A stretch of 44,661 nt of DNA, taken from positions 1 to 44,661 of the forward strand of contig MFNE01000007.1 in NCBI GenBank assembly GCA_001783695.1. Direction: 5' to 3'. Positions 4,276 to 23,226 of this stretch are shown here, piece by piece (positions within the stretch are counted from its first letter, which is position 1; every line of letters starts with the position of its first letter). The translations under genes and the position numbers were made by a program. Origin of the DNA: Candidatus Lambdaproteobacteria bacterium RIFOXYD2_FULL_50_16 (GTDB taxonomy: Bacteria > SAR324 > XYD2-FULL-50-16). The notes beneath the pieces are model-generated. The model was given only the letters and a program-made list of their open reading frames with translations. It was not told the DNA's origin and did no database searches.

Positions 4276-6876
4276 TTATTGGGAATCTTTGCTTGGGATC
4301 ACCGGAAGATAATGGTTGATCATATCAAATAGATGAACCTTGTGAAACGGTTTTGCAATAAAGTCGTTCATGCCGGCTGCCAAACAGCGTTCTCGGTCCG
4401 ATTCAAAGGCGTTGGCGGTTAATGCGATTATGGGAATATTAGGGTCTCCGGCCTCTCCTTGGCGAATCAGACGGGTTGCTTCCAACCCATTCATCACAGG
4501 CATTTGCATGTCCATCAGCACCAATTCAAAAGAGGTATTTTTTAATTTCTCAAGAGCCTCTTTACCGTTGTCGGCCACTTCGACCACAGCCTGATCGGAG
4601 GTAAGAACCTTGCTAGTTACCTGTTGATTGACCAGATTGTCTTCAACTAACAAAATTCGCCTGCCAGCTAACATTTTGGTATGCGACCTAGCTTTTTGGC
4701 TTTCTTCCTGGCCGTTTATTGTCAGGCCAAAAGGTAGGGAAAAATAAAACCGGCTACCTTGACCTAAGGTACTATCCACACCGATTTCACCACCCATCAA
4801 ATCAACCAATTTTTTTGAAATAGTAAGCCCTAAACCTGTACCGCCATAACGTTTGGTGGTGGCCGATTCCCCTTGAGTAAAGGATTCGAAAATACGCCTA
4901 ATCCGGTCTGGAGCGATCCCCACGCCTGTATCGGCGACAATAAACTCAAAAACGGTTTGGCCTGACTTTTGGTAGCGCTCTATAATCTGGACCTTAACCG
5001 AACCGTGATGAGTAAACTTCAACGCATTACCAATCAGATTCATTAAGACTTGCTTTACCCGTACAGGGTCTCCAAAAACCGGCTCAGGTAGGTTTGGGGG
5101 CACTTCTAAAGTTAGTGCCAAACCCTTCTCTGCACATTTAGGCTTAAAGAGGTCCAATAACTCATTGAGTTCATGGGCTAGGCTAAAATGGCGGTTGAAC
5201 AGGTCCATTCGCCCTGATTCGATCTTGGAAAGATCCAAAATATCGTTAATTACCGCCAAAAGATTTTCTGTCGAGTGATTAACAATCGACATCATTTCTG
5301 CCTGTTCCTCTGTCAAATCCGAGTCTAAAATCAGGCTGGTCATGGCCAAAATGGCGTTCATTGGAGTGCGAATTTCGTGGCTCATGTTAGCCAAAAACTC
5401 TGATTTAGCGCGGTTGGCCGCTTGGGCATCGAGTTTTGCTTGAATAAGGTCGTTTTCGACCTGTTTTTTAAGCGAAATGTCCTCTTTTATCGCCAAGAAA
5501 TGAGTAATATTCCCGGTTTCGTCAAAAATAGGCGAAATGGTTGCCGCCTCAGTAAAGATGGCCCCAGACTTGGTTTTGTTTACAAATTCACCAACCCAGA
5601 TATTTCCAGATTTGATCTGGGTCCATAGCTCTTTATATAAGGAAGGGGGCGATTGACCGCTAGCTAAGAAATTAGGGTTTTTACCCAGTATTTCGTCGGG
5701 TTTGTAGCCGGTCAATCTGGTGAAATGTGGGTTTACATACTCAATGTTTCCATGAAAGTCGGAAATCATTATGGTCACAGGGCTTTGGGCAACGGCCAGG
5801 GAAAGCTTGCGATTTTCCTCTTCTGAATCTGTAAGTTCCTTAACCGCCTGTTCTTGCCTGTCCATCAAACGATTGAAGGCCTTACCTATACGACCAATCT
5901 CGTCGTTTTGGTTGACCGTAATCCGCTGGGTTAGGTCGTTGGTGGCCTCAATACGGTTTATCACCTTTATGATCGACCGGACCGGGTAAAAGAGGATTTT
6001 TCGTAAATAAAAAGAGGATAAAACAATAGATATCAGTAAAATAAAAAGACCCGATACCCCTCCCCAAATTTGTAAGTTAGAAAGCAAGGTTTCTGCTTGG
6101 TCGAGAGAGATCTGCACCACCATATGGGCTGTTAGGTTGCCCTCAAAGTCGAAGAGGGGCAGATTCATCAACAAATATCCTGGCCACAAATCTGCGACTA
6201 CTTGATCTTGTTCGACCCATTTAGTAGGCAATCGACCCATTAAGGCTTGTCTTTCGGCGTTTTTTATGGTGCTAGAAAAAACCTGTCCGCCGGCCATCAA
6301 GGTAATTTCTGCCTCAGAGAGTTCTTTCATTCTTAAAGTAAAGCTTTGATCTAAAGGAAAGCCTAAGACAATCACCCCGATTGGTTGCGTAGTAGGCCCA
6401 ACTAAAACGGAGGAGAGCAGAGTTAAGCGCCCTGATTGCTGGGCGAAACTAGAAAGGGTTAAACCGGTCTCCAAGGTATGAAAAACCATTTTTTGGAGGA
6501 CTAAATCCAGGTTCAGGTCCTCCCCTTGCCGCAACAAAAGCTGACCTTTGTGGTCGAAAATATCAAAAATTGGCAACTCTAGTTCTATTTGATGACGCTC
6601 TACATTGGACCGGATCAAATTTAAGTCTTTATTCGCGATTCCCTGGATTAATGGGGGCATCAGGCGCAATAACTCACCTTGGCGATGTAGATTTTTGCGA
6701 CGTAGATCAAGCATTTGCTTGGCCATTCGGCTAGCGTGGTGGAGTTGATCTTCGGTGACTAGTTTAGTAAAATCAGTGACAAAGTGGTTTGAAACCCATA
6801 ACCCCAAAGCCAGTTGAGCCAGCAAAAACACCGCTACAATGCCCACTATCCTTTGATTTACCGTATTTTGGGGCAT
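4276..6876 (-). CDS. Membrane-bound hybrid sensor histidine kinase/response regulator
   Basis: Two-component sensor that should autophosphorylate and pass phosphate to its own receiver. Order in the 866 aa: transmembrane helix (about 9-28), periplasmic sensor region (about 30-270), second helix (about 272-292), HAMP (about 295-345), PAS with PAC (about 360-475), a short coiled coil, HisKA with [13 protein letters not shown] (phosphoacceptor His500), HATPase_c with the N box [19 protein letters not shown] and [13 protein letters not shown], then a receiver domain with LVEDN and [13 protein letters not shown] (phosphoacceptor Asp789), ALTANA and the KPF lysine. All catalytic motifs are intact. 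There is no Hpt domain, so phosphorelay would need a separate Hpt protein. It is a single gene, divergent from the cyclic-nucleotide-binding gene. Confidence 0.93.
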
Positions 6877-9368: not shown

Positions 9369-11297
9369 TTGGAGCTTTTCTTAACTGCGTTGTTCCCCAT
9401 CTTTTTTTTGTTTCTGCCAGGTTTATCCCTGGCTAAGCTTGCCGCCAAAAGAGGTTGGATTGAGCGCGCGAGCTTTAGCGGCCTGATCCTTTTTGGTCTC
9501 ACCTTCCATTTATATTCTAGCCTCTTGTACCGACTGCTGGCCACCAGTTTAGGGGTGGGAATCTGGCCCTATTTTTTGGCTCATGGCGTTTTTTTGTGGA
9601 TACCCTTGAGTGCCTTAGCACAGCAAAAACGCCCCTGGAAGGATTGGCTAAAAACCCAGTTGTTCGAGCGCTGGCGACCTGAACAAAAAGCTATATTTAG
9701 AGTCTATGTCGCTCTAGTGGTGGTGCTAATAGCCATGATGCGCCATTACCTGATAAAACCTCTCCAATATTATTATGGAGACGAACTTTTTCGCTTGAGC
9801 TTCGCCAATTTTATTCCCGCCAGGTTTCCGCCCAAGGATTTTTTAACCTATTCCTCGCAAAACATTCACTATTACAGCATTGCTGAAGCTTGGACGGCCA
9901 ACATTGGGCAGTTTAGTGGTATGCCCATCCCCGAATTATATCTCCATTACTTGGTTTTTTTCCACTGGCTTTTATTGTTGGTGGGAGTCATCGGGTTATT
10001 GCTTGAAGGTGGGCAGTCCAAACCTTTACTGATTTTTGCATTAGTGTTGCTGTTTTTTTGGGTCCATGGTCCAGCTGGGGAACAAAAAATTTCCCATTTT
10101 GTCTTCCGCCAAAACAGCCTAGCTTTGGCAATTATGGCGCTTTCCAGCTTTGGTATATTTCGGTTTTATAAATCAGGTAGATATGTTTATTTTATTAGCG
10201 CAATTCTTTTAGCCTCCCTAGTGGTAGGGATCAAAACGGTGGGGATTATGCCTTTGGGGCTCTTGATTCCGGCAGTGGGTTTGGCGATGTTTATTAAAAA
10301 ACGATTGAGTTTCAGCAAACTGACCTTAGCAGGTATGCTCAGTTTGGGTTCAATCTTGTTTTGGTATTTTCTTGTTGTGGCAACTCCCGTAGAGGGTGAG
10401 TCGGCTTACTTGATGTTTGAGCCGCGCCATTATTGGTCCATGGCCTATGCTCGGAGGATCATTGAGCACCCCATGTTTTTATATCCGCCCATTGAGCAAT
10501 TTTTAGATCAAAATTTGGGCTTTGAGCCGAGACCCTTTTTACTGCCCCTGTTTTATAGCTTTGAATTTGTACTCCTGGCCATTGGGGCTTTGTGGGGTTA
10601 CCAACGTGACGAAAGGGCTGCGCTCGACATGCCTGGGGGTTTTCTTTTGGCAGGTGGGTTTTTAACTATGATGGTAATGACCTTATGGCGGTTTTCTATC
10701 TCTGAATCATCGACGGTATATTTTTTGATTTTCGGGAGTTGGGCGTTTAATTTAGGGGTGCTTTATCTATTTCACCGGGCGGTGCCCTTGGTGAGAGCCC
10801 GTCACGCCTTGGTCTATGTTTCGGTAATCCTAATTTTTGCTTTAAACGCTTATGCGGGTCAGTCGCTGCGCCATTTGTATGGTCCTGGCTCGCATGTGCA
10901 AACTAGCGATGAAGAGATGGAGGCCTACCGGATATTACGCGAGGAAACAGATCAACGCAGCTATGTTTATCACAATCAATATCGCCAAAAAAAGTTTAAC
11001 ATCCCCGCCCTAGCAGAACGGCGAGCGGTCATTTCCTATTTATATGATGGGGCGATTTTTCAATCAAAGGAACTTTATCTGGCCCGCTTCGCCGAAGCCG
11101 ACCGGTTCTTCGGTGGGCAGATGAGCCCCAAAGAGATGCAGCAAACCTTAGACCAGTATGAGGTTGACGCCCTGCTTTGGGATACCCAGGAGACCCCCCC
11201 AATGGACCTTGAGTTTGCCGGGTTTGTTAAACGAATTGACCACCCTCACCTCAAGCTTTGGTTACGGCTGAATCCTCTAGCTGGCAGGACTCAATGA
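9369..11297 (+). CDS. Multi-pass membrane protein, GT-C-type glycosyltransferase candidate (paralogue 1)
   Basis: A 642-aa protein with about 12 hydrophobic helices from residue 1 to about 500 and a soluble C-terminal tail of about 140 residues. After the third or fourth helix comes YYYGDELFRLSFANF, an acidic motif in the place where GT-C glycosyltransferases carry their catalytic Asp/Glu pair, followed by a conserved aromatic stretch. I do not recognise a named family; the GT-C call rests on topology and that motif. The start is a TTG with an AAAAGGA ribosome-binding sequence six bases upstream; there is no ATG nearby. Its stop overlaps the next gene's start (ATGA), and the next gene is a paralogue. 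A lipid-linked sugar would be the expected donor. Confidence 0.6.
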   Translation: MELFLTALFPIFFLFLPGLSLAKLAAKRGWIERASFSGLILFGLTFHLYSSLLYRLLATSLGVGIWPYFLAHGVFLWIPLSALAQQKRPWKDWLKTQLFERWRPEQKAIFRVYVALVVVLIAMMRHYLIKPLQYYYGDELFRLSFANFIPARFPPKDFLTYSSQNIHYYSIAEAWTANIGQFSGMPIPELYLHYLVFFHWLLLLVGVIGLLLEGGQSKPLLIFALVLLFFWVHGPAGEQKISHFVFRQNSLALAIMALSSFGIFRFYKSGRYVYFISAILLASLVVGIKTVGIMPLGLLIPAVGLAMFIKKRLSFSKLTLAGMLSLGSILFWYFLVVATPVEGESAYLMFEPRHYWSMAYARRIIEHPMFLYPPIEQFLDQNLGFEPRPFLLPLFYSFEFVLLAIGALWGYQRDERAALDMPGGFLLAGGFLTMMVMTLWRFSISESSTVYFLIFGSWAFNLGVLYLFHRAVPLVRARHALVYVSVILIFALNAYAGQSLRHLYGPGSHVQTSDEEMEAYRILREETDQRSYVYHNQYRQKKFNIPALAERRAVISYLYDGAIFQSKELYLARFAEADRFFGGQMSPKEMQQTLDQYEVDALLWDTQETPPMDLEFAGFVKRIDHPHLKLWLRLNPLAGRTQ

Positions 11298-13165
11298 GCG
11301 AATTAATCCTGCTTAGCTTATACGCACTCCTGTTTGTGCTCCTGCCGGGGGACTATTTTTTGCGTTTTGGGGAAAGGTGGAAGTTGTGGAAATTTACGGG
11401 AATATTGCCTAGATTGGCCTTGGGATTAACCTTCCATGGATATGGGTTGTTGTTTTTTTATGTATTGATGCCCACCAATGCGGCCCCTTGGTTTTTGAGT
11501 GTTCACTTGGTTTTTTTCTGGCTTAACCGAGAAACCCTTAAACCAAAACGGGTAGTTGCAGGTATATTTTCTCTTTTTACCTATCACCGATTAGGCGCGA
11601 TTGGTTTTTCTGGGTTAACGTTGGTCTTGTTTTATGCACTTACAGGTCAAGCCGTTCAAGACCCGCTCTGGTCGTTTCAACCCAATGAACTAGAGGCGCT
11701 AAGCCGAGTAGTCTCCCACCAGTTACAATGGCCGCCAACGGACTTTTTCTTTGCTACAAACCTCACAGTTGCCCCGTTTTATTTAAGCGAGCTTTGGGGG
11801 GCAAACCTCTATTGGTTTAGTGGGATTGAGTTGCAAGCCCTTTATTTTCGTTATCAAGTGTTGGCCGCTTGGATGATTATTTATTTCGGTTTTATAGGAC
11901 TGGTACAAATACAAAAAGAGCGGCACCTATTGGCCTGGGTGTTGTTCTTTATGTGGTTTTTTGTTGCTGGGGCGGCTACTCCAAGCCGTTTAGTGCTCCT
12001 AAGTCAACCTCGGTTTGCCTTCGGTTTTGGGCTTTTGCTTTTGGCGATAAACTTTTTGTTCCATTTTCGACGCCACCAAGATTGGGGTTCGTTTTTGGTG
12101 TTTTGTTTACTGGCGCCGTTGGTTTTATTGGCTCAACCGTTGTTAATACTAGGATTAGGTCTGCCCCCGTTTTTTATGGGTTTTTATTGGATAAGACAAA
12201 AAAGGACTTGGCCACCCAAGTCGCTGGCTTTTGCGCTGCTATTACCTTTGATGGTGATGGCCGGGTTATACACCTATGGGCAAGGTAAAAATATTGGATT
12301 GCCCGATATCCGGGTTTATCTAAGTGGAATCAACCCTCAAGCCTCTATTCTAGTGGACCGCGCGGTTGACCTGCCCAATGGAGCCCTGCTCAATTTGAAA
12401 AAAAATGCCGCTAAGTTGCATAGGCCGGGGCTGGTATATCTAATGTTGCCCTTTTTTTTAAGTGTGGAAGCACTGCTTTTGATTCTTAGTGCTCGCGCGA
12501 TTAAACGGCCCAAACCTTCCGGTTTTTTTGAACCAGGCCAATTGGCCTTGCTGGTCTCGTCCATTGCGATTTACTTTGTTTATATCAAAGTCTCTTTAAT
12601 CCCCGATCCTCAAGTTAGCGATTACCACTTGGTCTTGTTTACCTTCTTTTTTGGGCTCGTGGCGGCAGCCCAGTTCCAGGCGGTTGCCTCAAGTTGGTGG
12701 CAACGAAATTCAGTTTGGCTGGTGGTCAGTCTAATCTTATTAAGCTTCAATCAATACCTCTGGCGTGACCTGGGGCATCTACGCGGTGAGCCCGTAGATG
12801 GTAAGCCAGTTTTAGGCTGGGAGGAAGGATTGGCCGAGATAAAAGCCCGGACGGACCGTTCTAAACGCTTTTTACACAACCAGATCAACGCCCCTGGAAG
12901 CCATGCTTGGCCCATACTGGCCCAGCGTGCTTCCGCCGCCACCGGGGACGACAGCCAATGGGACTCGAACCCGCAAAAACAACTACGTGAAAAAGCTGAG
13001 GCCATTTTAGCGGGCAGTTTAAAGGGAGCGGCAGCGGCCAAGCTCCTAGAAGAGTGGCAGGTGGAAGCACTGTTGATATCGGGCCCTAGCCCCCAAGACT
13101 GGCAGGCCTTGGGGTTTAGCCCGGTCTGGGATATGGCGTCGGTAACGCTATGGATCAAACCTTAG
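11294..13165 (+). CDS. Multi-pass membrane protein, GT-C-type candidate (paralogue 2)
   Basis: A 623-aa protein with the same plan as its neighbour: about 12 hydrophobic helices, then a soluble tail. Corresponding blocks can be laid side by side: PNELEALSRVVSHQLQWPPT opposite the first paralogue's GDELFRLSF block, the SELWGANLYWFSG block opposite AEAWTANIGQFSG, and a C-terminal EWQVEALLISG opposite QYEVDALLWD. The Asp of the first paralogue's GDE motif is Asn here (PNE), which could weaken or change catalysis. I use the ATG at 11294, which overlaps the upstream TGA as ATGA, rather than a TTG at 11258. The two probably arose by tandem duplication and may act as a pair. No named family recognised. 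Confidence 0.6.
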   Translation: MSELILLSLYALLFVLLPGDYFLRFGERWKLWKFTGILPRLALGLTFHGYGLLFFYVLMPTNAAPWFLSVHLVFFWLNRETLKPKRVVAGIFSLFTYHRLGAIGFSGLTLVLFYALTGQAVQDPLWSFQPNELEALSRVVSHQLQWPPTDFFFATNLTVAPFYLSELWGANLYWFSGIELQALYFRYQVLAAWMIIYFGFIGLVQIQKERHLLAWVLFFMWFFVAGAATPSRLVLLSQPRFAFGFGLLLLAINFLFHFRRHQDWGSFLVFCLLAPLVLLAQPLLILGLGLPPFFMGFYWIRQKRTWPPKSLAFALLLPLMVMAGLYTYGQGKNIGLPDIRVYLSGINPQASILVDRAVDLPNGALLNLKKNAAKLHRPGLVYLMLPFFLSVEALLLILSARAIKRPKPSGFFEPGQLALLVSSIAIYFVYIKVSLIPDPQVSDYHLVLFTFFFGLVAAAQFQAVASSWWQRNSVWLVVSLILLSFNQYLWRDLGHLRGEPVDGKPVLGWEEGLAEIKARTDRSKRFLHNQINAPGSHAWPILAQRASAATGDDSQWDSNPQKQLREKAEAILAGSLKGAAAAKLLEEWQVEALLISGPSPQDWQALGFSPVWDMASVTLWIKP

Positions 13166-13168
13166 CGC

Positions 13169-13723
13169 CTAAATCTGGGGGAGTTGGGGCGTCCTTAAAC
13201 AGGTAACCAAAAGCTGGTTGGAGCCTTGAGCGTAGTCTTTGCAAATCGCCCATCTTTGGGGGCTCGCTTCTATTTGGGGTAAACTTAGCTTAGCCTTGGT
13301 TTCCAAGTCCATACAGGTGGTGCGGGCTGAGCGATTAACCTGATTGCAATAAAGCTCTGGACTAAATCCAGGGGTTAGGGAGGAGTCTTCGACCGATGGG
13401 CTAAACAAACCATTTGTGGCCGGTTTAGATTGCTGGGATAACATAAAGGTCAAAATTGCCAGATAACCCACAGCACCTAAAAATACAGCCCGCCAATCAA
13501 AGGCCCGTTGACCAATCGGCAACTCACGGTTGGCCCTGAATCCTGCATAGACTGAAACGCCCAAAGCCAAAACCGGCACGAGGCTAACCAGCATAAACAC
13601 GAGCCCTCGTAAATATTGACCGTAGCCGATGTAGTAAAAGGGCGCGAAAAAAAAGGCGATCAAATTAAAGGGCTTGACCGGCGGTGGCTCGGGGTCAGAT
13701 TTTAATTCTTCCCATTGGTTCAT
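13169..13723 (-). CDS. DUF2628-like small membrane protein
   Basis: A 184-aa protein with an N-terminal FNLIAFFFAPFYYIGYGQYL block followed by hydrophobic helices, as in DUF2628 proteins of unknown function, then a third membrane segment (about residues 85-105) and a soluble tail of about 80 residues with four cysteines (ELYCNQ, TTCMDLE, ICKDYA, VTCLRTP), probably outside the membrane and able to form two disulfides. It is the last gene of the seven-gene operon: its ATG overlaps the stop of the polymerase-like gene (ATGA). It ends three bases from the convergent GT-C gene. Confidence 0.6.
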   Translation of the reverse strand: MNQWEELKSDPEPPPVKPFNLIAFFFAPFYYIGYGQYLRGLVFMLVSLVPVLALGVSVYAGFRANRELPIGQRAFDWRAVFLGAVGYLAILTFMLSQQSKPATNGLFSPSVEDSSLTPGFSPELYCNQVNRSARTTCMDLETKAKLSLPQIEASPQRWAICKDYAQGSNQLLVTCLRTPQLPQI

Positions 13724-14934
13724 GCGGGGGCCTCGATGGTTAATTCAAGTGGTTCTGCGTTATGGCGATAACACAAAAAGCTAAGGGCAATGGCGGTTAA
13801 AAACAAAGGGTACCAGAAAAAATCGAAGGTTAGGCTAAAATAAAGGAAAAAAAGTAAAAGCGGAAAGTTATGGCGCGAATAATAATAAAGCAACCAAGCA
13901 AAAAAACAAAATAATAACAAACCTCTACTAAAAATAACCTGCACCACCCCAGCAGTCGCGCCCCCTTGGATCAACTCCTTCATGGGTAGGATCCCGATCC
14001 CAAAAAACATCTCCCAGAGGTTTAGTTCTAGGTATTTATTCAGTACTAAGACCAACCGATCAATCCTAACCAACGCAGAGCTATTAGGAAGCGCGTCTGG
14101 GTTAAAAACGATATAGACTATTGGGGGGAAGGCGAAAATAAAGATTAAAAAAGCCACCAATCCCAAACCAATTCGAGCCTTTTTGATCCACACAAAACCA
14201 AACCACAAGGCGAGGTAGAGATAGAAAGTATAACTTAAGCTCAAGATTCCCGCCAGTGTGGCAATTAAAGCATAGCGCCGGGCGTGTTTGGCTTCTATAA
14301 ACAGGTCTCGGGCCATAAACAGGTTGAGCCCGCAGAAAAAAGCAAACAGTCCAGGCTCGTCGATCCAACCGGTATATCGGGGCAGCCAGATCCCCAATAT
14401 GTTTTTTTGCAGCAGGTTACCCACTAACGGATGGAACTGGTAGGGATATCCGAGTGGGTAAGGGAAGGCTCGGAAACTCAAAATCCCAAAGAGATGTGCC
14501 GCTACCGCCAAAAAAGACATGGCAAAAAAGCTAAGCCATAACCAAATCCATAGACGCCTAACCCAAAGGTATAGATTCAGATACCGATCCATTACCCGAA
14601 TGAGTAAAACAAAATATAACATCTTGTTAAAAAAGGAAAAAACCTGCTCTGGCTGGTCGCCGCCGAAGAGTCCATATAGGCCAACAAAAAAGCTCGCCCA
14701 AAGGAGTTGGGGCGCAACCCCAAATCCGTTATTCAACCAATAAGCACTAAGCAGTAAAACCAGCGTTAAGGCCTCAACCAGTAACCTAACCATCGGTGGG
14801 AAAGCGACGTGACTCACAAAGGGCGGGTACAGCATTTGGTAAGTAAATATTACGCCTGCCAATAAGACCGTGGCCAAGGTAAAGTCGGGTTTGCTAAAGA
14901 GTCTTGGGGTTGAATAAACTTGGAGCGATTCCAT
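13720..14934 (-). CDS. O-antigen polymerase/ligase-like membrane protein
   Basis: A 404-aa inner-membrane protein with 10-12 helices and one longer periplasmic loop (about residues 140-190) containing YTGWIDEPGLFAFFCGLN. An Arg/Gly-rich loop followed by an EPG motif at the start of a helix is typical of Wzy-type O-antigen and exopolysaccharide polymerases. The call is therefore a surface-glycan polymerase or ligase; the substrate is unknown. I use the ATG at 14934, two bases after the STAS stop, rather than an upstream start at 14982 inside the STAS gene. It overlaps the DUF2628 gene downstream. Its place behind the kinase-like and STAS genes suggests that polymer synthesis is under their control. 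Confidence 0.6.
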   Translation of the reverse strand: MESLQVYSTPRLFSKPDFTLATVLLAGVIFTYQMLYPPFVSHVAFPPMVRLLVEALTLVLLLSAYWLNNGFGVAPQLLWASFFVGLYGLFGGDQPEQVFSFFNKMLYFVLLIRVMDRYLNLYLWVRRLWIWLWLSFFAMSFLAVAAHLFGILSFRAFPYPLGYPYQFHPLVGNLLQKNILGIWLPRYTGWIDEPGLFAFFCGLNLFMARDLFIEAKHARRYALIATLAGILSLSYTFYLYLALWFGFVWIKKARIGLGLVAFLIFIFAFPPIVYIVFNPDALPNSSALVRIDRLVLVLNKYLELNLWEMFFGIGILPMKELIQGGATAGVVQVIFSRGLLLFCFFAWLLYYYSRHNFPLLLFFLYFSLTFDFFWYPLFLTAIALSFLCYRHNAEPLELTIEAPA

Positions 14935-14936
14935 AG

Positions 14937-15266
14937 TTACAATGCCAGATAAGCAAGGGCGGCTTCTGTAGAAACAAAACACTTAAGCACTTGATCTAGC
15001 CGAGTAATCATAAACAAGTGGAGCAGGTTGGGCCTAAGGCCACAAAGAGCCAATTTTTTGCCCGATTGCCCGAGCCGTTTGTATAAAAAAACCAAAAAAC
15101 TAAACCCAGCGGCATCAATGGTTTGTAATTGGGCGCAGTTGAGCACCACGCCAGGTCCTGGCTGGGTGAGAATCCACTCGATTTTTTGGTTTAACTCGGC
15201 TTTTTCTAAAGGGCCAGTTAGATGGATCAAAAGCGCCCCCGCAACCTGTTCAAAGCTAGGGTTCAC
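14937..15266 (-). CDS. STAS-domain (anti-anti-sigma-like) protein without a phosphorylatable serine
   Basis: A 109-aa single STAS domain: an N-terminal strand, then GPGVVLNCAQLQTIDAAGFS and FLVFLYKRLGQSGKKLAL, as in SpoIIAA/RsbV anti-sigma-factor antagonists. In those proteins a Ser in the D-S-S/T-G motif is phosphorylated by the partner kinase. Here the motif is D-A-A-G, so the usual switch residue is absent and the protein may be permanently in the unphosphorylated form or serve as a scaffold. The start is GTG, overlapping the stop of the large pseudokinase gene as GTGA. No anti-sigma kinase of the RsbW type is in the window. Confidence 0.8.
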   Translation of the reverse strand: MNPSFEQVAGALLIHLTGPLEKAELNQKIEWILTQPGPGVVLNCAQLQTIDAAGFSFLVFLYKRLGQSGKKLALCGLRPNLLHLFMITRLDQVLKCFVSTEAALAYLAL

Positions 15267-18200
15267 TTGATAGCCAGTTGACGTTGCAGTTGGTCAATGC
15301 GTTTTTCTAATTCTAACTTGGAGCTACGCAGTTCTTCGGTGGTCTGGGCCAAACTAGCATAGAGACTGGAATTTTCAAGGGAAATCGCTACCTGCGCGAT
15401 TAGCAACTTTAGGAATTCGACCCGTTGTTTGCTAAAGGCATGGGTCGCAAGATTATTCTCTAAATACAATAATCCCAATGTTTTACCGTGATTGATTACG
15501 GGCAGGGCTAAAATAGACTTTGGCTTCTCCGTTTTTACATAAGGATCGAAGGCAAACAGCGAATCCACCCTGGCATCGTCGATAGCCACAATCTTGCTCG
15601 TCCGGGTGGCGTAAGAGACCACGGCTTTGGAAAGGCCTTGGCACTCCTCAAATTTGATCGAGCAGAGCTTTACCGGGGGGTCTTGGCCCATAAAACCCTG
15701 GGCGCGAACTATATAATTGAGTTTTTGGTTCAGTAGAAAAAATCCCTTTTGCGCCCCGGCGTTTTCCAAGAGTACTTTGAGCATCTTTTGGATCAGGCGG
15801 GCTTGGTCGAATTCCAGACTAAGGGTTTCTTGGGTGCGGCTTAGGGTGGTGATATCAAAAGTTTCGGTTTTATTTTGGCTGCTTGGGGCCTGTTGGGCAT
15901 AGTTTTGGTTGAGGTAAGGGCCAAGTTCTGCGGCCAATTGTTCCAGCTTGGCCTTCGCCCCCCAACGGATATAGTTAACCTGTGCTTCACCCAGGTAGGC
16001 ACGGGCAATAATAGGTTTGTTTTTGCTTAAGTAATAGCGAGCGGCCCGCTCAAAAGCTAGCGCCAGAATATGGGTACGGTCTTGGGAGATAGCCGCGTCA
16101 ATCGCTTGATCAAAAAGGTTAATGGCCTCTAAAAAGTTTCCAGAAACGGCCGACATCTCCGCGCACACCAAGAGGTAACGATCATTAAAGTTAATCGGAC
16201 AAGCAATGGCCAACTTGGCCAACTTGTCTCGGTTACCCTTTAAAATATCCCAATACCTTTTGCGTTCTTCAGAGCTGAGGTTGGGGTAGTTGGCCAGGAC
16301 AATCATTGAGTAATAAAAATAATGCTCTGGCACACTCAATTGGCCGTAGTTAAAGATCAGCCGGTCTGACTTTAAAATTAGCTGCATCGCTTGGGGTTGA
16401 TCTCCCATAAAATAATGCAGTTGAGCTTGAATCAAATAATACCATTGCAAAGGCATCTGGTTTCGAGAACTCCGCAAGGCGTCCTCTAAGGGTTGATCAG
16501 GAGCGGTGGTTAACTGGTAATTGGGGTCAGCGAGACCTAAAAAAAGTTTGGTCATCACCATCATATGTTCGAGGTCGGGGTTGCCGACCTGATGCGCGAA
16601 GTCGTCGTGTTTACTAACCTCCATGGCTAGCCCGTCTAACGGGGTTCCAGCCAAAATATGGGTAAATAACAAAAACTCCACTGCCGAAGCGGCCCCGATC
16701 AAATCTCCAATCCGGTTACCCAAACTTACAGCCCCTTCTAAACCCACAATTGATTCGGTAGCGCTGGTCTTCCAATGGTTGATATAGGCGTAAAATAGGA
16801 AGTTTAGCTTGCTCGAATCGAGCCGATTTTTAAACCGGCGGTTGAGTTCGATTGCCATTCGCCCCATGGCATGGCCCCGTTGGTAGTCTTCTAGGCCCGA
16901 ACAAAGAAGCACCGCAAAGTTCATATAGCCAAACGCCGAACTCTGCGAGTTTCCTTGATTTAGGCTAGTCTCGACCATCTTTAGGGTCAAATAGATCCAT
17001 AGGCTCCGGCGGGCAAGACTGGCAGCAGGAATCAGGTTGCTAATTAACTTCATCAGGGCCTGATCGCCGGGACCTTCCATCTCCTTTAAAAAAGGCAGGG
17101 TCTCAATCTTCTGCGCGCCCAGTCGGGCCTGCAACTCGGCCATTTTGACTTGAATAACAATATGTACTTCTGCTTCGTTGGGTGGGATCGGCTCTTTAGA
17201 AAATCGGTTAATCGATTCAACCCCAACCTCTAAGGCCTGCTTGAGGTCGCCGGCTTTAATAAAGAGGTTTAACTTAATGTTGATCACCTCTTCACGTTCT
17301 TGGTCGGTCTTTAAGTGATCGTATAAAATGTTAAAAATGGGTTTAAACGCTTCGGTGTTGCCTGTATAATATTCGGCCTCTGCTCGGCGGACATAAAGTT
17401 CTTTGATTAGCTGATAATCGGTTTCCCAGTTGGAATCGTCGAGCAACTCGGTTCCGCGCATGTAATATTCCCAAGCCGTATCATAGGCGGCGCGGCCCCG
17501 AGCCAGATTGCCGGCGGTAAGGTTGAGTTGAGCCAACTGCTGGCGGTCTTTGGGGTTTGTGACTAGTTCGACCGCCTGATTAAGCTGGGCGACGGTTTTA
17601 TAAACCCAATCCTCCCCTTCAGGTGTTGGGCGGTTTTCTAAGAGTTGTTTGCCAATCGTAAAGTGGCATTGGCGGCGACCGCCTGATTCCCAAAGGCTTA
17701 AAGCGGCCTTGTGGACGCGGTCGTGAAGAAAATGAAAGACCCCCGTGGCGTGAGGACGGCTTTCTTCGATTACCATTCCTTTGTGAAGGGGGGCTTTAAG
17801 AGCCGCCCAGACCTGCTCTAAACTCCAGCCTAAGGCCAAAGAAAGGGTTTTAAGTTCAAATTCGGTACCAATACAGGCGGCGGTTTTAACCACCACCACC
17901 GATTGTTCGGGCAGATTTTTTATTTTGTTGCCCAAAAGCTCAATTACATCATTAGAAAGCGCTTCTTTGTTGATCTGTTTTAGGTCCCATTGCCAAAGCT
18001 GCTTTGTTTCATTGTAGGTGATAAGCCCGCGCTCGATTAACAACGAAAGCAGTTGTTTAACAAAAAACGGGTTCCCATTGGTTTTTTGCAAAAACATCTT
18101 GGTGAGTTCGCCAAAGTCTTGTTTGGAATCAAAAGCTTCGGAAAACATATCCTTAAGGTCACGAATACCCAACGGGCGAACCTTGGTCTCCTGGCTAATT

Positions 18201-19720
18201 ACCCCACTGTGGGCGATGGCGTCAAAAAACAATTTAAGGTTTGCAGATTGTTCTGCCAAGTTTTCGCGAAAGGCGGTCAATAACATGACATGCCGACTGT
18301 TTACATCGGTAACAAAATTTTGTAGTGCCGATAAACTGGCGGAATCGGCCGAATGGAAATTATCCAAGAAAATGACTAGCGGCTTTTTATCCTTAATAAA
18401 ACAGGTCAAAAACTTTTGAACCGCGCGATTGATTCGCCCTTCGGTCTCGATTGGCTCCAGGGGGTCGCTGGAGGGGGCCGGTTGGATTAATAGTTTGAGG
18501 TCCGAAACCAATTCTGAAACCAAAACGAGGTCGTCGCCCAATTCGGATTTAATTAACTGCCGCCAATGTTCGAGCGCTTTTTCCTCTAAAGCCAAAAGTT
18601 GATTTACTAGCTGATTTAACGCCTCTTTAAGCCCATAGTAGGGGGTATCACGGTGTTGCTTTTCGAAGCGTCCCTCGATTAGAATCGCCCCTTCTGCTTG
18701 AACCCGCACTTTAAGTAATTCGACCAAGCTCGACTTGCCAAGCCCCGCCGCCCCTTTAATATGTACCGCCTCGACCCCGCCTGCTAAAACATGAGCAAAA
18801 GATTCTTCGAGCAGTTTTTTGTGACGTGCAATCCCATAAAGCCCTTGGGGCATTTGGAAACGTTTAACCAACCTTCGGTCATCAATCTCAAAGTCTTCAA
18901 TCAAGCCCGATTCTAAAAAGCGGGTTTGACAGTTCTTGAGGTCAATTAAAAGATTTTCGGTGGTTTCGTAGCGTTCTTGAGCGGTTTTTGCGAGCAGCTT
19001 GTAAACAATTTTATCCACAACTTCAGGCACCTCAGGCCGCTCTCCATGGGGGTGCGTGGGGCTGATGGCGATGTGGCTGTGAATCAGTTCTAGTTGATCG
19101 TTGGAAGTAAAGGGTGGGTGTCCGGTCAAAAGCTCGAAAAAAATTGCCCCTAGCGAGTAGAGGTCGGAGGTTTTATCCACCGCCCGATTGATCCTGCCGG
19201 TTTGCTCTGGCGAGTGGTAAACAAAGGCTTCTGCAAGCGGATGGAACGGGCTTAAATCCTCAGGGATCAGGTTTTCTTGGTTTTTTAAAAACAGCCCGGT
19301 TAGATAACACTGGTTAGTATGAGGGGCGACTAGGATATTAAAGGGGGTTAGGTCTTTATGTAGTAAATTTAAACGATGAATCTCTTGTAGCGCCTCGGTT
19401 GCCGATATTGCGTAGTCAAAAAAACGGGTTAACTCGACCGGGCCATCTAGGAGTTGGGGTAAAAACTGGTAGGGGCAGTTTTCGTATAAAAACAGGACCT
19501 CTTTGTCTCCTAGTTGGATCTGGTCCGGGACCACCAGATGCGGCAGACTTGGGGTAGGCTCAAAGGATTGGGCGATGTATAAGGCTTCAGGAGTGACCGC
19601 TGCTAGTTCCACCAGCTTTATCAGCCCCCCGCTAGACTTAGCATTAAGGACTTGAGCATAGCTATGGGAGAAGGTCAGGCTAAAATCAGGAAATTCGGAA
19701 ATTTTACTCATAGACCCCAT
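15263..19720 (-). CDS. Pseudokinase-ATPase-GAF signalling protein (Ser/Thr kinase-like, AAA/STAND-type)
   Basis: A 1485-aa cytosolic protein. Residues about 1-275 form a Ser/Thr-kinase-like domain with HKDLTPFN (Asp123, Asn128) and YHSPEQTGRINR, the activation-segment signature of large kinase-ATPase-GAF sensors. The DFG aspartate is missing (LTGLF instead) and no glycine-rich loop or VAIK lysine is evident, so it is probably a pseudokinase. Residues about 315-560 form a P-loop ATPase (GAAGLGKSS, Lys329; Walker B VIFLDN). A long helical TPR-like region follows, then a GAF domain (about 1305-1450) and a terminal coiled coil. Many relatives end in a histidine kinase; this one does not. I start at 19720 (ATG, overlapping the upstream TAA as TAATG); 19711 is an alternative. 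STAS gene follows with a GTGA overlap. Confidence 0.85.
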   Translation of the reverse strand: MGSMSKISEFPDFSLTFSHSYAQVLNAKSSGGLIKLVELAAVTPEALYIAQSFEPTPSLPHLVVPDQIQLGDKEVLFLYENCPYQFLPQLLDGPVELTRFFDYAISATEALQEIHRLNLLHKDLTPFNILVAPHTNQCYLTGLFLKNQENLIPEDLSPFHPLAEAFVYHSPEQTGRINRAVDKTSDLYSLGAIFFELLTGHPPFTSNDQLELIHSHIAISPTHPHGERPEVPEVVDKIVYKLLAKTAQERYETTENLLIDLKNCQTRFLESGLIEDFEIDDRRLVKRFQMPQGLYGIARHKKLLEESFAHVLAGGVEAVHIKGAAGLGKSSLVELLKVRVQAEGAILIEGRFEKQHRDTPYYGLKEALNQLVNQLLALEEKALEHWRQLIKSELGDDLVLVSELVSDLKLLIQPAPSSDPLEPIETEGRINRAVQKFLTCFIKDKKPLVIFLDNFHSADSASLSALQNFVTDVNSRHVMLLTAFRENLAEQSANLKLFFDAIAHSGVISQETKVRPLGIRDLKDMFSEAFDSKQDFGELTKMFLQKTNGNPFFVKQLLSLLIERGLITYNETKQLWQWDLKQINKEALSNDVIELLGNKIKNLPEQSVVVVKTAACIGTEFELKTLSLALGWSLEQVWAALKAPLHKGMVIEESRPHATGVFHFLHDRVHKAALSLWESGGRRQCHFTIGKQLLENRPTPEGEDWVYKTVAQLNQAVELVTNPKDRQQLAQLNLTAGNLARGRAAYDTAWEYYMRGTELLDDSNWETDYQLIKELYVRRAEAEYYTGNTEAFKPIFNILYDHLKTDQEREEVINIKLNLFIKAGDLKQALEVGVESINRFSKEPIPPNEAEVHIVIQVKMAELQARLGAQKIETLPFLKEMEGPGDQALMKLISNLIPAASLARRSLWIYLTLKMVETSLNQGNSQSSAFGYMNFAVLLCSGLEDYQRGHAMGRMAIELNRRFKNRLDSSKLNFLFYAYINHWKTSATESIVGLEGAVSLGNRIGDLIGAASAVEFLLFTHILAGTPLDGLAMEVSKHDDFAHQVGNPDLEHMMVMTKLFLGLADPNYQLTTAPDQPLEDALRSSRNQMPLQWYYLIQAQLHYFMGDQPQAMQLILKSDRLIFNYGQLSVPEHYFYYSMIVLANYPNLSSEERKRYWDILKGNRDKLAKLAIACPINFNDRYLLVCAEMSAVSGNFLEAINLFDQAIDAAISQDRTHILALAFERAARYYLSKNKPIIARAYLGEAQVNYIRWGAKAKLEQLAAELGPYLNQNYAQQAPSSQNKTETFDITTLSRTQETLSLEFDQARLIQKMLKVLLENAGAQKGFFLLNQKLNYIVRAQGFMGQDPPVKLCSIKFEECQGLSKAVVSYATRTSKIVAIDDARVDSLFAFDPYVKTEKPKSILALPVINHGKTLGLLYLENNLATHAFSKQRVEFLKLLIAQVAISLENSSLYASLAQTTEELRSSKLELEKRIDQLQRQLAIK

Positions 19721-20343
19721 TAACGGCGACAAACCCAAAATCCTTGGTGACCTTTCGGGATAACTTTAGCAGAGATTAACAGACTGCTCAAGGGCAAGCG
19801 CGGGGGCAGGCCTTGTTGGGCCCTAAGCGAATTGGAATAGACCATTGAATATTGGGGCTTTAACCCCTGTTCAACTGCGAGTTCAGCCAAGGTGGTGAAC
19901 AGGATCTGGACTCCTAAGGAGCGGACCTCTTCAGGGTTGCCTTGGCTTAAAAAAAGCAACTCATTCGCGTTTAACCCTGGGCAAAATAGCTGGTCTAATA
20001 CCTCTGTTTTAATTGGGTCTTCCCACCAAATGTAATAGACTAAAAGCCAATCCTCTAAAAGTAATTCCAAGGTCATCAGATCTTCGTCTTCCACCCTAGA
20101 AAAGGCCAAATCTTCTTCTTGCCGTTTTTTTAAAGGACCTTGCCAGAGTGTTTTGATCTGGGCTTTGTAAACCCCTGAAAGGGTGATGGGAACCGCCCAA
20201 AAATGAGTTTTGGCTAGGTTATATTCTTTAGCCTCTGGTGGGCGCTCAAAACCCTCGGGGTCTAAAAAGGGATGTAACTGCATTTGCGGAGCAGAACAGG
20301 CGGAAAGCCCCAAAACCAACCCTACAAGGAACCACCTGATCAA
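19720..20343 (-). CDS. Putative lipoprotein of unknown function
   Basis: A 207-aa protein starting with a short signal peptide and a lipobox, FLVGLVLGLSAC, so it should be lipid-modified at Cys16 and exported. The rest has no motif I recognise; it is acidic in the middle and contains a Trp/Tyr-rich LLVYYIWWED segment. The start is a TTG at 20343 whose last bases overlap the aroB stop (TTGA), with AAGAGA upstream. This is better than an ATG at 20403, which would lie well inside aroB and put about 20 extra polar residues before the signal peptide. Its stop overlaps the next gene's start. Confidence 0.6.
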   Translation of the reverse strand: MIRWFLVGLVLGLSACSAPQMQLHPFLDPEGFERPPEAKEYNLAKTHFWAVPITLSGVYKAQIKTLWQGPLKKRQEEDLAFSRVEDEDLMTLELLLEDWLLVYYIWWEDPIKTEVLDQLFCPGLNANELLFLSQGNPEEVRSLGVQILFTTLAELAVEQGLKPQYSMVYSNSLRAQQGLPPRLPLSSLLISAKVIPKGHQGFWVCRR

Positions 20344-21461
20344 GGAACGGTCTCTTGAATCAAAGCCCCCTCGCTGACTAGATAGGCTTGATACGTTTCC
20401 CATATCTCTTTAAGCTGCACTTGGGCCACAATCACGCCTTGGCCTAAGGAGTTAAGCCCAATAAAGTTAAGCCCCTGGGCGCTGCTTTTTTTATCATGGC
20501 CGATGATCTCAAAAAAGGTGGACTGGTTCACTTTCGGATAGGTTATCTTTAAGCCTAGTTGGGCTAAGTGTTGACCAATTAACTTATAGTCAGATGGGCT
20601 CAGGAGCCCGCGGCGGACCGACCAAAAGGCGGCAAAGTCCATGCCGGCGATTACCGCTTCCCCGTGTAAATATTGATCGTAGTTGGTGTAGGTTTCAATA
20701 AAATGTCCAAGTGTATGGCCAAAGTTAAGCATGGCTCGGGCAAAAGATTCGCGTTCGTCTTTTTCGACTACGTTCGCCTTGACTTGGCAGCTCCGGCTAA
20801 TCGCCTCGATCAGCATGGGGGCGTTTTGTGATAAGGCTTCGAGGGTGGTTTTATGAAGTAGTTGGTAAAGATAACTGTCTGCTATAAATCCATGTTTAAC
20901 CAACTCTGCATAACCCGCCAAAAATTCGCGAGGTGGGAGCGTGGCTAGAAAATCTACGTCAATAATGGTTTGCAAAGGTTGCTTAAAGGCACCGATACTG
21001 TTTTTGCCAGAGGGGTGGTTGACGGCGGTCTTGCCTCCGATACTCGAATCCACCTGGGATAAAAGAGTGGTGGGGACTTGCACAAAACTCATTCCCCGCA
21101 TATAGGACGCAGCAGCAAACCCAACCATATCACCAATCACCCCGCCGCCAAAGGCAACCAGCAAGCTTTTGCGGTTCGCTCCTTCTTTGGCTAAAAAATC
21201 AAAGATTAAGCTTAGAGTGTCTAAGGTTTTATAACGCTCGCCATCGGGCAAAACTAAAAGTTTGGCCGTAAAGCCAGCGGGCAAAGCTTTTGCGATTCGG
21301 TCTGGATAAAGGGCGTTGACCCGGTCATTGGTAACCACGAACACCACCGGTTCTGGGTGGTGCAAGATCAGGTCTGCCAAGGCACCATTGAGGATTCCTT
21401 GACCAATAAAAACCTGATATTGGTACGGCTGGCGAACCAGCGAAATGGAGATGTTTTTCAT
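20340..21461 (-). CDS. aroB: 3-dehydroquinate synthase
   Basis: Converts DAHP to 3-dehydroquinate, the second step of the shikimate pathway, using NAD and a divalent metal, in the cytosol. The 373-aa length is typical. Visible motifs are GGGVIGDMVGFAAASYMRG, VPTTLLSQVDSSIGGKTAVN, the metal-ligand Glu/His region ELVKHGFI, and FGHTLGHFIE with its ligand histidines. Its ATG overlaps the acylphosphatase stop (ATGA), and its stop overlaps the lipoprotein start. No aroK lies beside it, unlike many genomes; the gene instead leads a signalling and glycan operon, so its housekeeping expression may drive the whole unit (inference). Confidence 0.95.
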   Translation of the reverse strand: MKNISISLVRQPYQYQVFIGQGILNGALADLILHHPEPVVFVVTNDRVNALYPDRIAKALPAGFTAKLLVLPDGERYKTLDTLSLIFDFLAKEGANRKSLLVAFGGGVIGDMVGFAAASYMRGMSFVQVPTTLLSQVDSSIGGKTAVNHPSGKNSIGAFKQPLQTIIDVDFLATLPPREFLAGYAELVKHGFIADSYLYQLLHKTTLEALSQNAPMLIEAISRSCQVKANVVEKDERESFARAMLNFGHTLGHFIETYTNYDQYLHGEAVIAGMDFAAFWSVRRGLLSPSDYKLIGQHLAQLGLKITYPKVNQSTFFEIIGHDKKSSAQGLNFIGLNSLGQGVIVAQVQLKEIWETYQAYLVSEGALIQETVP

Positions 21462-21736
21462 CCGTTTAGGATTTGAAAACTAGTTAACGAAGGATTGGTC
21501 TCCGCCTCGTGGCTGGTCAGGTCACTGACCTTTGCCTGAGGCGGTCCTTCTATACACCAAGCTTTAAATTCGATTAAGGCGGCCTCACTCCCTTGGGCAA
21601 AAATCTCAACCGTTCCTTCTACCAGGTTTTGAATCCAGCCCACAATTCCCAGATCTTGAGCCTTTTTTTGAGCGGAAGCCCGGTAAAACACCCCCTGTAC
21701 CTTGCCATGTACCGTGATTTTTGTTGCTATCGTCAT
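21458..21736 (-). CDS. acyP: Acylphosphatase
   Basis: Hydrolyses acyl phosphates in the cytosol. The 92-aa protein has the fold's signatures: GKVQGVFYRAS with the phosphate-binding loop and catalytic Arg, and GWIQNLVEGTVE with the catalytic Asn. A longer reading from 21769 is possible, but the ATG at 21736 gives the family-typical beginning TIATKITVHGKVQG. It is the first gene of the seven-gene minus-strand operon and overlaps aroB (ATGA). I found no convincing promoter in the 275 bp upstream on this strand. Confidence 0.9.
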   Translation of the reverse strand: MTIATKITVHGKVQGVFYRASAQKKAQDLGIVGWIQNLVEGTVEIFAQGSEAALIEFKAWCIEGPPQAKVSDLTSHEAETNPSLTSFQILNG

Positions 21737-22011: not shown

Positions 22012-23226
22012 ATGAGTGTTCCTGCCAATCCCCCTGAACAGGTCAAAATTAACTTTGACCACCTGCCGCTTGCTAAGCGGTTGGAGGAGGTTAATGGGCT
22101 GCCTATTCCTACCTCAAGTGATTATTGGCAATTGGCGGAATTTTTGCCCAAACAGATCGGGAAAAAAATTCGTAAACTTTTCCAAAAGGACCTAACCGAA
22201 GCAGAGATGTCTGATCTTCGCAAACAGGCGATCCAATCCCCCGGCAAGACCCAAGGCGAGATTCAGCGGCTTAAAAAGTTACACCCAGACAATCCCGACC
22301 TTTTGATGCTTTCGGCGATCTGCACCTATGGCATGAACCAAAATTCAGCCAATAATGCCAAAATGTTTTTAGCCCTGAAACTGGCGGCCAAAGATGCAGC
22401 ATTGGCTTTGGTTAATGATGGGTTGAGCCTTTATAACGTAGATAACTTCTACCGGCTTTATCATATTTTACTTGAACGCTACCGGCGGGAAGCTGAAAAG
22501 CTGGAAAAAGAGGTTCGCGGTGAAAAATATGCCGCCCAACGGGCAAAATTAGCGACGACCAACGCGCTGCTTAATATTTTGGTTTCTGAAAAAGAGAAGG
22601 GTCAGGGGATTTTGGACCATATGAAAAAGCGGGTGATGTCTAGTTCCTATCCCCACTATTTTACTTTTGCCAGGATTAGTAAAGCTTGCCAGTCGATTGA
22701 CGAACAACGCCCCAAAGAGATGATTGGCCATTTTAACGCTCAAGACACAATTGCGGTGGTTTACGCGGTTGGGATGTCCATCGCTCGGGTGCCCATCTTA
22801 CATCCACTACTAGACCGTTTTAACCAAGTCATGGGTGGCAGTACCCCCAATTTAGAATTGCGCCGGGTTTCGATTTTATCGGCCCAGCATTTTTTACAGT
22901 TGATTATTGCCGTATTGGATGAGGATGAAGAGCGCGTCAAACGGGTAGGGCGCGCGATTTTTGCAGAAAATCACGCGGCCACGCAAATCTTAGACAACCT
23001 CCAAATCCGCCAACCCTATGAAGCGGACCCCTTTTTAAACATGGCCTTGGTCACCGAGATGGGTTCAGGTGCCTTTGATACGGAAGAACATTTTCGCATG
23101 GTGTCCTTAGCACTCCACGCCCAAGACACCTTGCAGAAAAAAGATATGAGCAAAGACGGGGTCTTTTCTAATTCTGCCTATGCCCACAAACGGAAATTAT
23201 CGGCTATGGTTAAAGAGGAAGCTTAA
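22012..23226 (+). CDS. Hypothetical helical protein
   Basis: A 404-aa protein I do not recognise. It has no signal peptide or membrane helix. It is strongly helical and charged, with a TPR-like segment near residues 95-115 (LKKLHPDNPDLLMLSAICTY) and a likely coiled coil around residues 155-190 (RREAEKLEKEV). No catalytic motif stands out. The start ATG lacks a Shine-Dalgarno sequence and may rely on coupling to the upstream leader ORF. The stop codon shares TTAA with the convergent hemH. A cytosolic helical scaffold or regulatory protein is possible, but this is a guess. Confidence 0.65.
   Translation: MSVPANPPEQVKINFDHLPLAKRLEEVNGLPIPTSSDYWQLAEFLPKQIGKKIRKLFQKDLTEAEMSDLRKQAIQSPGKTQGEIQRLKKLHPDNPDLLMLSAICTYGMNQNSANNAKMFLALKLAAKDAALALVNDGLSLYNVDNFYRLYHILLERYRREAEKLEKEVRGEKYAAQRAKLATTNALLNILVSEKEKGQGILDHMKKRVMSSSYPHYFTFARISKACQSIDEQRPKEMIGHFNAQDTIAVVYAVGMSIARVPILHPLLDRFNQVMGGSTPNLELRRVSILSAQHFLQLIIAVLDEDEERVKRVGRAIFAENHAATQILDNLQIRQPYEADPFLNMALVTEMGSGAFDTEEHFRMVSLALHAQDTLQKKDMSKDGVFSNSAYAHKRKLSAMVKEEA

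Follow-up and report, generated by a model that had tools for sequence, protein, structure and literature searches.

A lipoprotein gene paired with the gene of a predicted HstK-lineage pseudokinase in one family of the SAR324 clade

The HstK-type dual kinases combine a Pkinase domain, an ATPase, a GAF domain and a C-terminal HisKA module in one protein (PMC2176072; PMC1262709). The stretch of DNA analysed here, called the window, is the whole of contig MFNE01000007.1 (44,661 nucleotides; C7 below) of Candidatus Lambdaproteobacteria bacterium RIFOXYD2_FULL_50_16 (G000; GCA_001783695.1; 3.14 Mb, 98% complete), a genome that belongs to the SAR324 clade (Ca. Lambdaproteobacteria). Its minus strand carries a gene, KIN, whose product shares with cbSTKIII and Anabaena Alr2258/HstK an N-terminal kinase-like domain, a centre made of an AAA/STAND ATPase and TPR-like segments, a GAF domain and a cytosolic location. 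KIN differs from these dual kinases by the absence of the DFG aspartate and of a HisKA/HATPase output, and by the presence of an obligate partner lipoprotein encoded by the adjacent gene, LIPO. The obligate LIPO-KIN pairing is the strongest feature of the locus and was overlooked in the preliminary description of this DNA; a literature search found no relevant description of a lipoprotein/pseudokinase-STAND pair. The features concerned are the following.

15263..19711, minus strand: KIN, about 1,482 aa, pseudokinase, AAA_16 STAND-type ATPase, TPR-like region, GAF domain and C-terminal coiled coil, no HisKA (Pfam; tree; motifs)
18956..19507, minus strand: C-lobe of the KIN pseudokinase (Pfam PF00069, residues 78-261; motif alignment)
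18281..18817, minus strand: AAA_16 ATPase domain of KIN with an intact Walker A motif, GAAGLGKSS (Pfam PF13191, E=6.2e-25)
15377..15799, minus strand: GAF domain of KIN (Pfam PF01590, E=1e-11); a coiled-coil-like helix closes the protein about 40 aa further on
19720..20343, minus strand: LIPO, 207 aa, TTG start, new lipoprotein family, always 5' of KIN (alignment A4; AlphaFold model)

Motif losses and descent of KIN

The locus was compared with that of relatives which are metagenome-assembled genomes named Ca. Lambdaproteobacteria, SAR324 cluster or Deltaproteobacteria. The search covered 383 genomes, 52 of them in the phylum, and the family set consists of G000 and nine other genomes of the same family. 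One clear KIN orthologue of about 1,500 aa, 36-54% identical to that of the window, is found in each of these nine; with a second copy in G003, the ten genomes provide 11 LIPO-KIN copies.

The aspartate of the DFG motif is lost in all 11 orthologues, where it is replaced by Gly in ten (at about 19295-19297 in the window) and by Ser in G004, whereas it is retained in 15 of 16 paralogues. The HxD aspartate (about 19352-19354 in the window) and the catalytic asparagine are kept in the 11 copies, the VAIK lysine in all except that of G001, and the Walker A motif is intact throughout; the αC glutamate is not among the invariant columns of the orthologue alignment. At the other end of the protein, no complete orthologue extends beyond the GAF domain and the coil: they end 0-6 residues past the end of the window protein, against 51-792 in the paralogues, and Pfam gives no HisKA or HATPase match in KIN. 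The protein can be aligned with the paralogues over residues ~60-1485 at 25-33% identity and is grouped with them in a tree in which the orthologues form a single clade (support 1.00) on a long stem. Judged from its sequence, KIN is of the HstK lineage by descent and fails two of the defining features of that lineage, complete kinase motifs and a C-terminal HisKA. It appears to have lost both kinase activities, that of the Ser/Thr kinase domain and that of the C-terminal output module. The preliminary description had called KIN a pseudokinase-ATPase-GAF sensor, and the loss of the DFG aspartate throughout the family, together with the Pfam domains, supports that prediction.

LIPO as the constant partner of KIN

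A LIPO open reading frame lies directly 5' of KIN and on the same strand in every KIN locus of the family (11 of 11 copies), the gap between the two genes ranging from -1 to 107 nt. The LIPO profile, built from the ten sequences of alignment A4, matches ten of the 52 genomes of the phylum and the same number among the 383, all in this family (0 of the 373 others); every match adjoins KIN, and LIPO without KIN was never seen in the 383 genomes. The second pair of G003 is carried by a 3.7-kb contig (L123:1849-3698), with a different gene ahead and with the DFG aspartate also lost. In the case of G001, KIN is split across two contigs, LIPO being on one and the gene of a STAS-domain protein (STAS below) on the other. 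The LIPO-KIN pair is an invariant and vertically inherited character of one SAR324 family. The strict adjacency of the two genes amid reshuffled surroundings indicates that they form a functional pair.

The previously undescribed LIPO family has an invariant lipobox cysteine, Cys16, which follows a hydrophobic signal-peptide segment in all ten sequences, and its +2 residue is Ser or Thr in each of them, never Asp (Ser in the window protein). In E. coli, the +2 residue decides the destination of a lipoprotein. Under this sorting rule, Ser or Thr at +2 suggests the outer membrane, where LIPO is probably located. Cys121 and Cys205 are likewise invariant in the ten-sequence alignment, which also displays a PLSNxE-like motif, and this cysteine pair beyond the lipobox probably forms a disulfide. 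The AlphaFold model of LIPO, a confident one (predicted local distance difference test, pLDDT, 86.5; predicted template modelling score 0.82), has no significant Foldseek match in the PDB (best E 1.2) or in a viral library, and we provisionally consider it as a new fold, as judged against these two libraries only. In a profile search of the PDB, LIPO weakly matched DsbC (E=5.5e-4) and CPR-C4 (E=4e-3); neither likeness was confirmed by the fold search (best E ~1.2, probability 0.06), and both were taken as chance.

Genes around the pair

In the window, LIPO and KIN stand in the middle of a string of seven minus-strand genes, the order being acyP-aroB-LIPO-KIN-STAS-POL-DUF2628. The five other members are listed here.

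21458..21736, minus strand: acyP, acylphosphatase, 92 aa (Pfam PF00708, E=3.6e-24), 5' of aroB also in G001, G002, G004 and G005
20340..21461, minus strand: aroB, 3-dehydroquinate synthase, 373 aa (Pfam PF01761 and PF24621), 52-63% identical and in the same order in four relatives
14937..15266, minus strand: STAS protein, 109 aa, GTG start (Pfam PF01740, E=1.1e-12), with a degenerate phosphosite, DAAG, at about 15105-15116
13720..14934, minus strand: POL, predicted multi-pass membrane protein, 404 aa, polymerase-like by topology and an RxxGxxDEPG motif only; local passenger
13169..13723, minus strand: DUF2628-like small membrane protein, 184 aa (Pfam PF10947, E=0.028, under the cut-off); local passenger

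The Pfam matches support the acylphosphatase, dehydroquinate synthase, Pkinase-AAA_16-GAF and STAS assignments, and the library searches of the window proteins gave no family match for LIPO and POL. The junctions described previously were all read again in the sequence: ATGA for acyP/aroB (21461-21458), TTGA for aroB/LIPO (20343-20340), TAATG for LIPO/KIN (19722-19718), GTGA for KIN/STAS (15266-15263), a 2-nt gap for STAS/POL (TAA-ct-ATG) and ATGA for POL/DUF2628 (13723-13720). The only adjustment to this layout concerns the start of KIN, for which the alignment of the orthologues favours the ATG at 19711, 8 nt past the LIPO stop codon, over that of the TAATG at 19720. From 19711 the N-terminus MSKISEFP... 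pairs with the MSLTQEYP... of the sister-genus orthologue, so the TAATG may not be the start in use. A scan for promoters and terminators gave a signal barely above that of shuffled sequences. The genome G005 holds acyP-aroB-LIPO-KIN-STAS with gaps of ~3, 1, 3 and 6 nt, a packing nearly as tight as that of the window, so that the first five genes constitute a conserved operon-like block, whose co-transcription is predicted from gene packing.

The neighbours of the pair are less constant than the pair itself. The acyP-aroB genes lie 5' of LIPO-KIN in five of the ten family genomes (G000, G002, G004, G005 and G001); in G001, transporter and oxidoreductase genes spanning 8.6 kb separate them from it. 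Divergent from the acyP operon, positions 22012-23226 of the window encode a 404-aa protein with no Pfam or NCBIfam match, which occupies the same place between acyP and hemH in G001, G002, G004 and G005 (33-50% identity). About 9 kb 3' of KIN in the sister genus lies a 2,721-aa open reading frame (L047:2775-10940) with the look of a non-ribosomal peptide synthetase.

STAS is a frequent third member: it follows KIN in six of the ten genomes (G000, G001, G004, G005, G007 and G009), so that the KIN-STAS linkage proposed earlier is partly conserved. The gene maps of the loci display no STAS after KIN in G002 or in the genus g4 (G003, G006 and G008). At another place the g4 genomes have a different STAS gene, whose surroundings are those of the second STAS gene of G009; the idea that g4 relocated its linked gene was rejected, since G009 has both copies and those of g4 share the context of the second one. 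The phosphosite of the linked proteins is DSSG in four copies, DVAG (Val-Ala) in G005 and DAAG (Ala-Ala) in the window, and the label of phospho-switch given to the STAS protein in the preliminary description consequently fails in G000. As a free-standing STAS domain of ~110 aa, the window protein resembles the anti-sigma-factor antagonists SpoIIAA and RsbV, and it scores 50.1 bits against TIGR00377, just under the cut-off of 53.45 bits. It differs from them by Ala in place of the phosphorylatable Ser and by a locus devoid of a HATPase_c_2 anti-sigma factor and of a SpoIIE phosphatase. The HATPase_c_2 kinase/anti-sigma matches of G000 all fall outside C7, on contigs that include C18 and C46; on C46 a SpoIIE/HATPase_c_2 module adjoins another STAS gene, and C18 encodes a response-regulator-HATPase_c_2 protein. 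Partner-switching hardware is therefore present in the G000 cell, but not at the LIPO-KIN-STAS locus. A large sensor encoded nearby (4276-6876) was rejected as a SpoIIE-type partner, for it is a HAMP-PAS-histidine kinase-response regulator protein. Elsewhere in the same class, two genomes of one SAR324 genus (G015 and G027) have at least 89 STAS-domain matches each, an extreme expansion.

The last two genes of the string are, as far as the genome comparison tells, local 3' add-ons of this lineage only, POL-DUF2628 being beside KIN in one of the ten family genomes, G000. POL has at least 8 hydrophobic segments and a poor AlphaFold model (pLDDT 40.6); it gave no Pfam match even at E<=10, none in NCBIfam or PHROGs, and nothing usable in a PDB sequence search, which leaves the polymerase label weak. 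Wzy-type polysaccharide polymerases have a multi-pass topology with a large periplasmic loop and the signature R..G...P. POL resembles these enzymes by its R..G..DEPG motif and its predicted multi-pass character, and differs from them by the lack of any match in the three family libraries, by its poor model and by its confinement to one genome and one sister genus. Its only homologue among the 383 genomes is in that sister genus, G002 (43% identity), on a separate contig (C55) next to a radical-SAM/B12 gene; genes for a PMT_2-type transferase and an amidase, as well as mutS, lie close by. The pair of GT-C-like genes facing the string (9369-13165) belongs to a family without Pfam match, a lineage-specific expansion which has 7 copies scattered in G000, 3 in G002 and 0 in the 50 other genomes of the phylum. 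With seven scattered copies, the nearness of this pair to the string is not specific. POL, DUF2628 and GT-C-like genes are found at the KIN locus of no relative.

A scaffold model and its alternatives

The model we propose, to which we give about an even chance, has a LIPO-KIN core in which KIN, teamed with a lipoprotein of the envelope, serves as a signalling scaffold without catalysis. Since both catalytic outputs appear to be gone and the ATPase is intact, a scaffold or a switch would be the most economical mechanism. KIN, descended from an HstK-type multi-domain sensor kinase, would most likely be a cytosolic ligand-gated scaffold whose GAF domain and pseudokinase sense a small molecule or a nucleotide. 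The intact STAND-type ATPase/TPR core would then undergo a switch of conformation or of oligomeric state, which the exposed coiled coil at the C-terminus would relay by binding partners in trans, STAS being one candidate where it is present. We infer that LIPO, co-produced with KIN, contributes to this pathway from the envelope. The acyP-aroB genes would be a housekeeping pair supplying a shared transcript in some lineages, and POL and DUF2628, which give no sign of being regulatory targets, would gain co-expression by their 3' position. Several points weigh against this scaffold model. There is no visible physical connection between a cytosolic KIN and a periplasm-facing LIPO, and the interactions, the ligand and the output of KIN are predictions. 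The STAS protein is not an obligate output, its gene not being adjacent to KIN in four of the ten genomes; it lies 128 to ~185 nt from KIN in G001, G004, G007 and G009, where it could have its own promoter. Finally, a missing DFG aspartate is no proof that phosphotransfer is absent.

This last point leaves room for KIN to be an active non-canonical Ser/Thr kinase that phosphorylates a partner, like the few divergent eukaryotic kinases devoid of this aspartate. The conservation of the VAIK lysine, the HxD aspartate and the asparagine across a long divergence suggests selection on the nucleotide pocket, and of the six linked STAS proteins four retain the DSSG phosphosite; the loss of the DFG aspartate in every copy, the lack of an invariant αC glutamate and the disappearance of the phosphosite in G000 and G005 make such an activity unlikely. 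The string may also reflect mere genome packing, that is, a shared transcript with no common function beyond an old neighbour pair. The neighbours vary freely, as this reading expects (acyP-aroB in 5/10 genomes, STAS in 6/10 and POL-DUF2628 in 1/10), but LIPO and KIN have stayed together in all copies despite the reshuffling, and the exclusive occurrence of LIPO with KIN argues for a functional linkage; packing by itself is a distinctly unlikely explanation.

The circuit put forward in the preliminary description, by which an internal signal detected by KIN would pass through STAS to POL and so control a surface polysaccharide, perhaps with the GT-C-like pair, now seems very improbable. The 2-nt STAS-POL gap and the POL-DUF2628 overlap do imply co-expression in G000, and POL is a predicted multi-pass protein with the R..G..DEPG motif. 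Against this, POL is missing from 381 of the 383 genomes, its homologue is unlinked, and LIPO-KIN is present in 8 genomes where no POL gene was found; the kinase/STAS/polymerase order, whose conservation in relatives was to support the circuit, is kept in none of them, the STAS phosphosite is lost in the window, and the proximity of a GT-C-like family scattered over the genome says little. We give hardly any credence to a role of KIN as a STAND-type immune or stress NTPase in anti-phage defence, with LIPO as an associated effector or marker. The AAA_16 and TPR-like architecture and PADLOC matches would fit such a role, but these matches span the generic kinase domain only, and KIN is essentially a single-copy, vertically inherited orthologue in 10/10 family genomes, beside aroB in several, unlike the variable defence islands.

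A bolder form of the scaffold model sees in LIPO-KIN(-STAS) a novel type of system that signals from the envelope to the cytosol in one SAR324 family: a former dual kinase, having discarded its two kinase activities, would signal through its STAND ATPase by scaffolding alone, and would be coupled to a lipoprotein with a new fold. We regard this as possible, and rather doubtful.

In conclusion, our observations correct a tempting link to polysaccharide control, which is unsupported, and describe an HstK-type sensor in which the apparent loss of both catalytic outputs is family-wide and vertically fixed, the ATPase core and a partner lipoprotein being retained. LIPO, possibly a new fold, is a concrete lead in an uncultured clade, and the LIPO-KIN pair provides a natural case in which to test how bacterial pseudokinase-STAND proteins may signal without catalysis.

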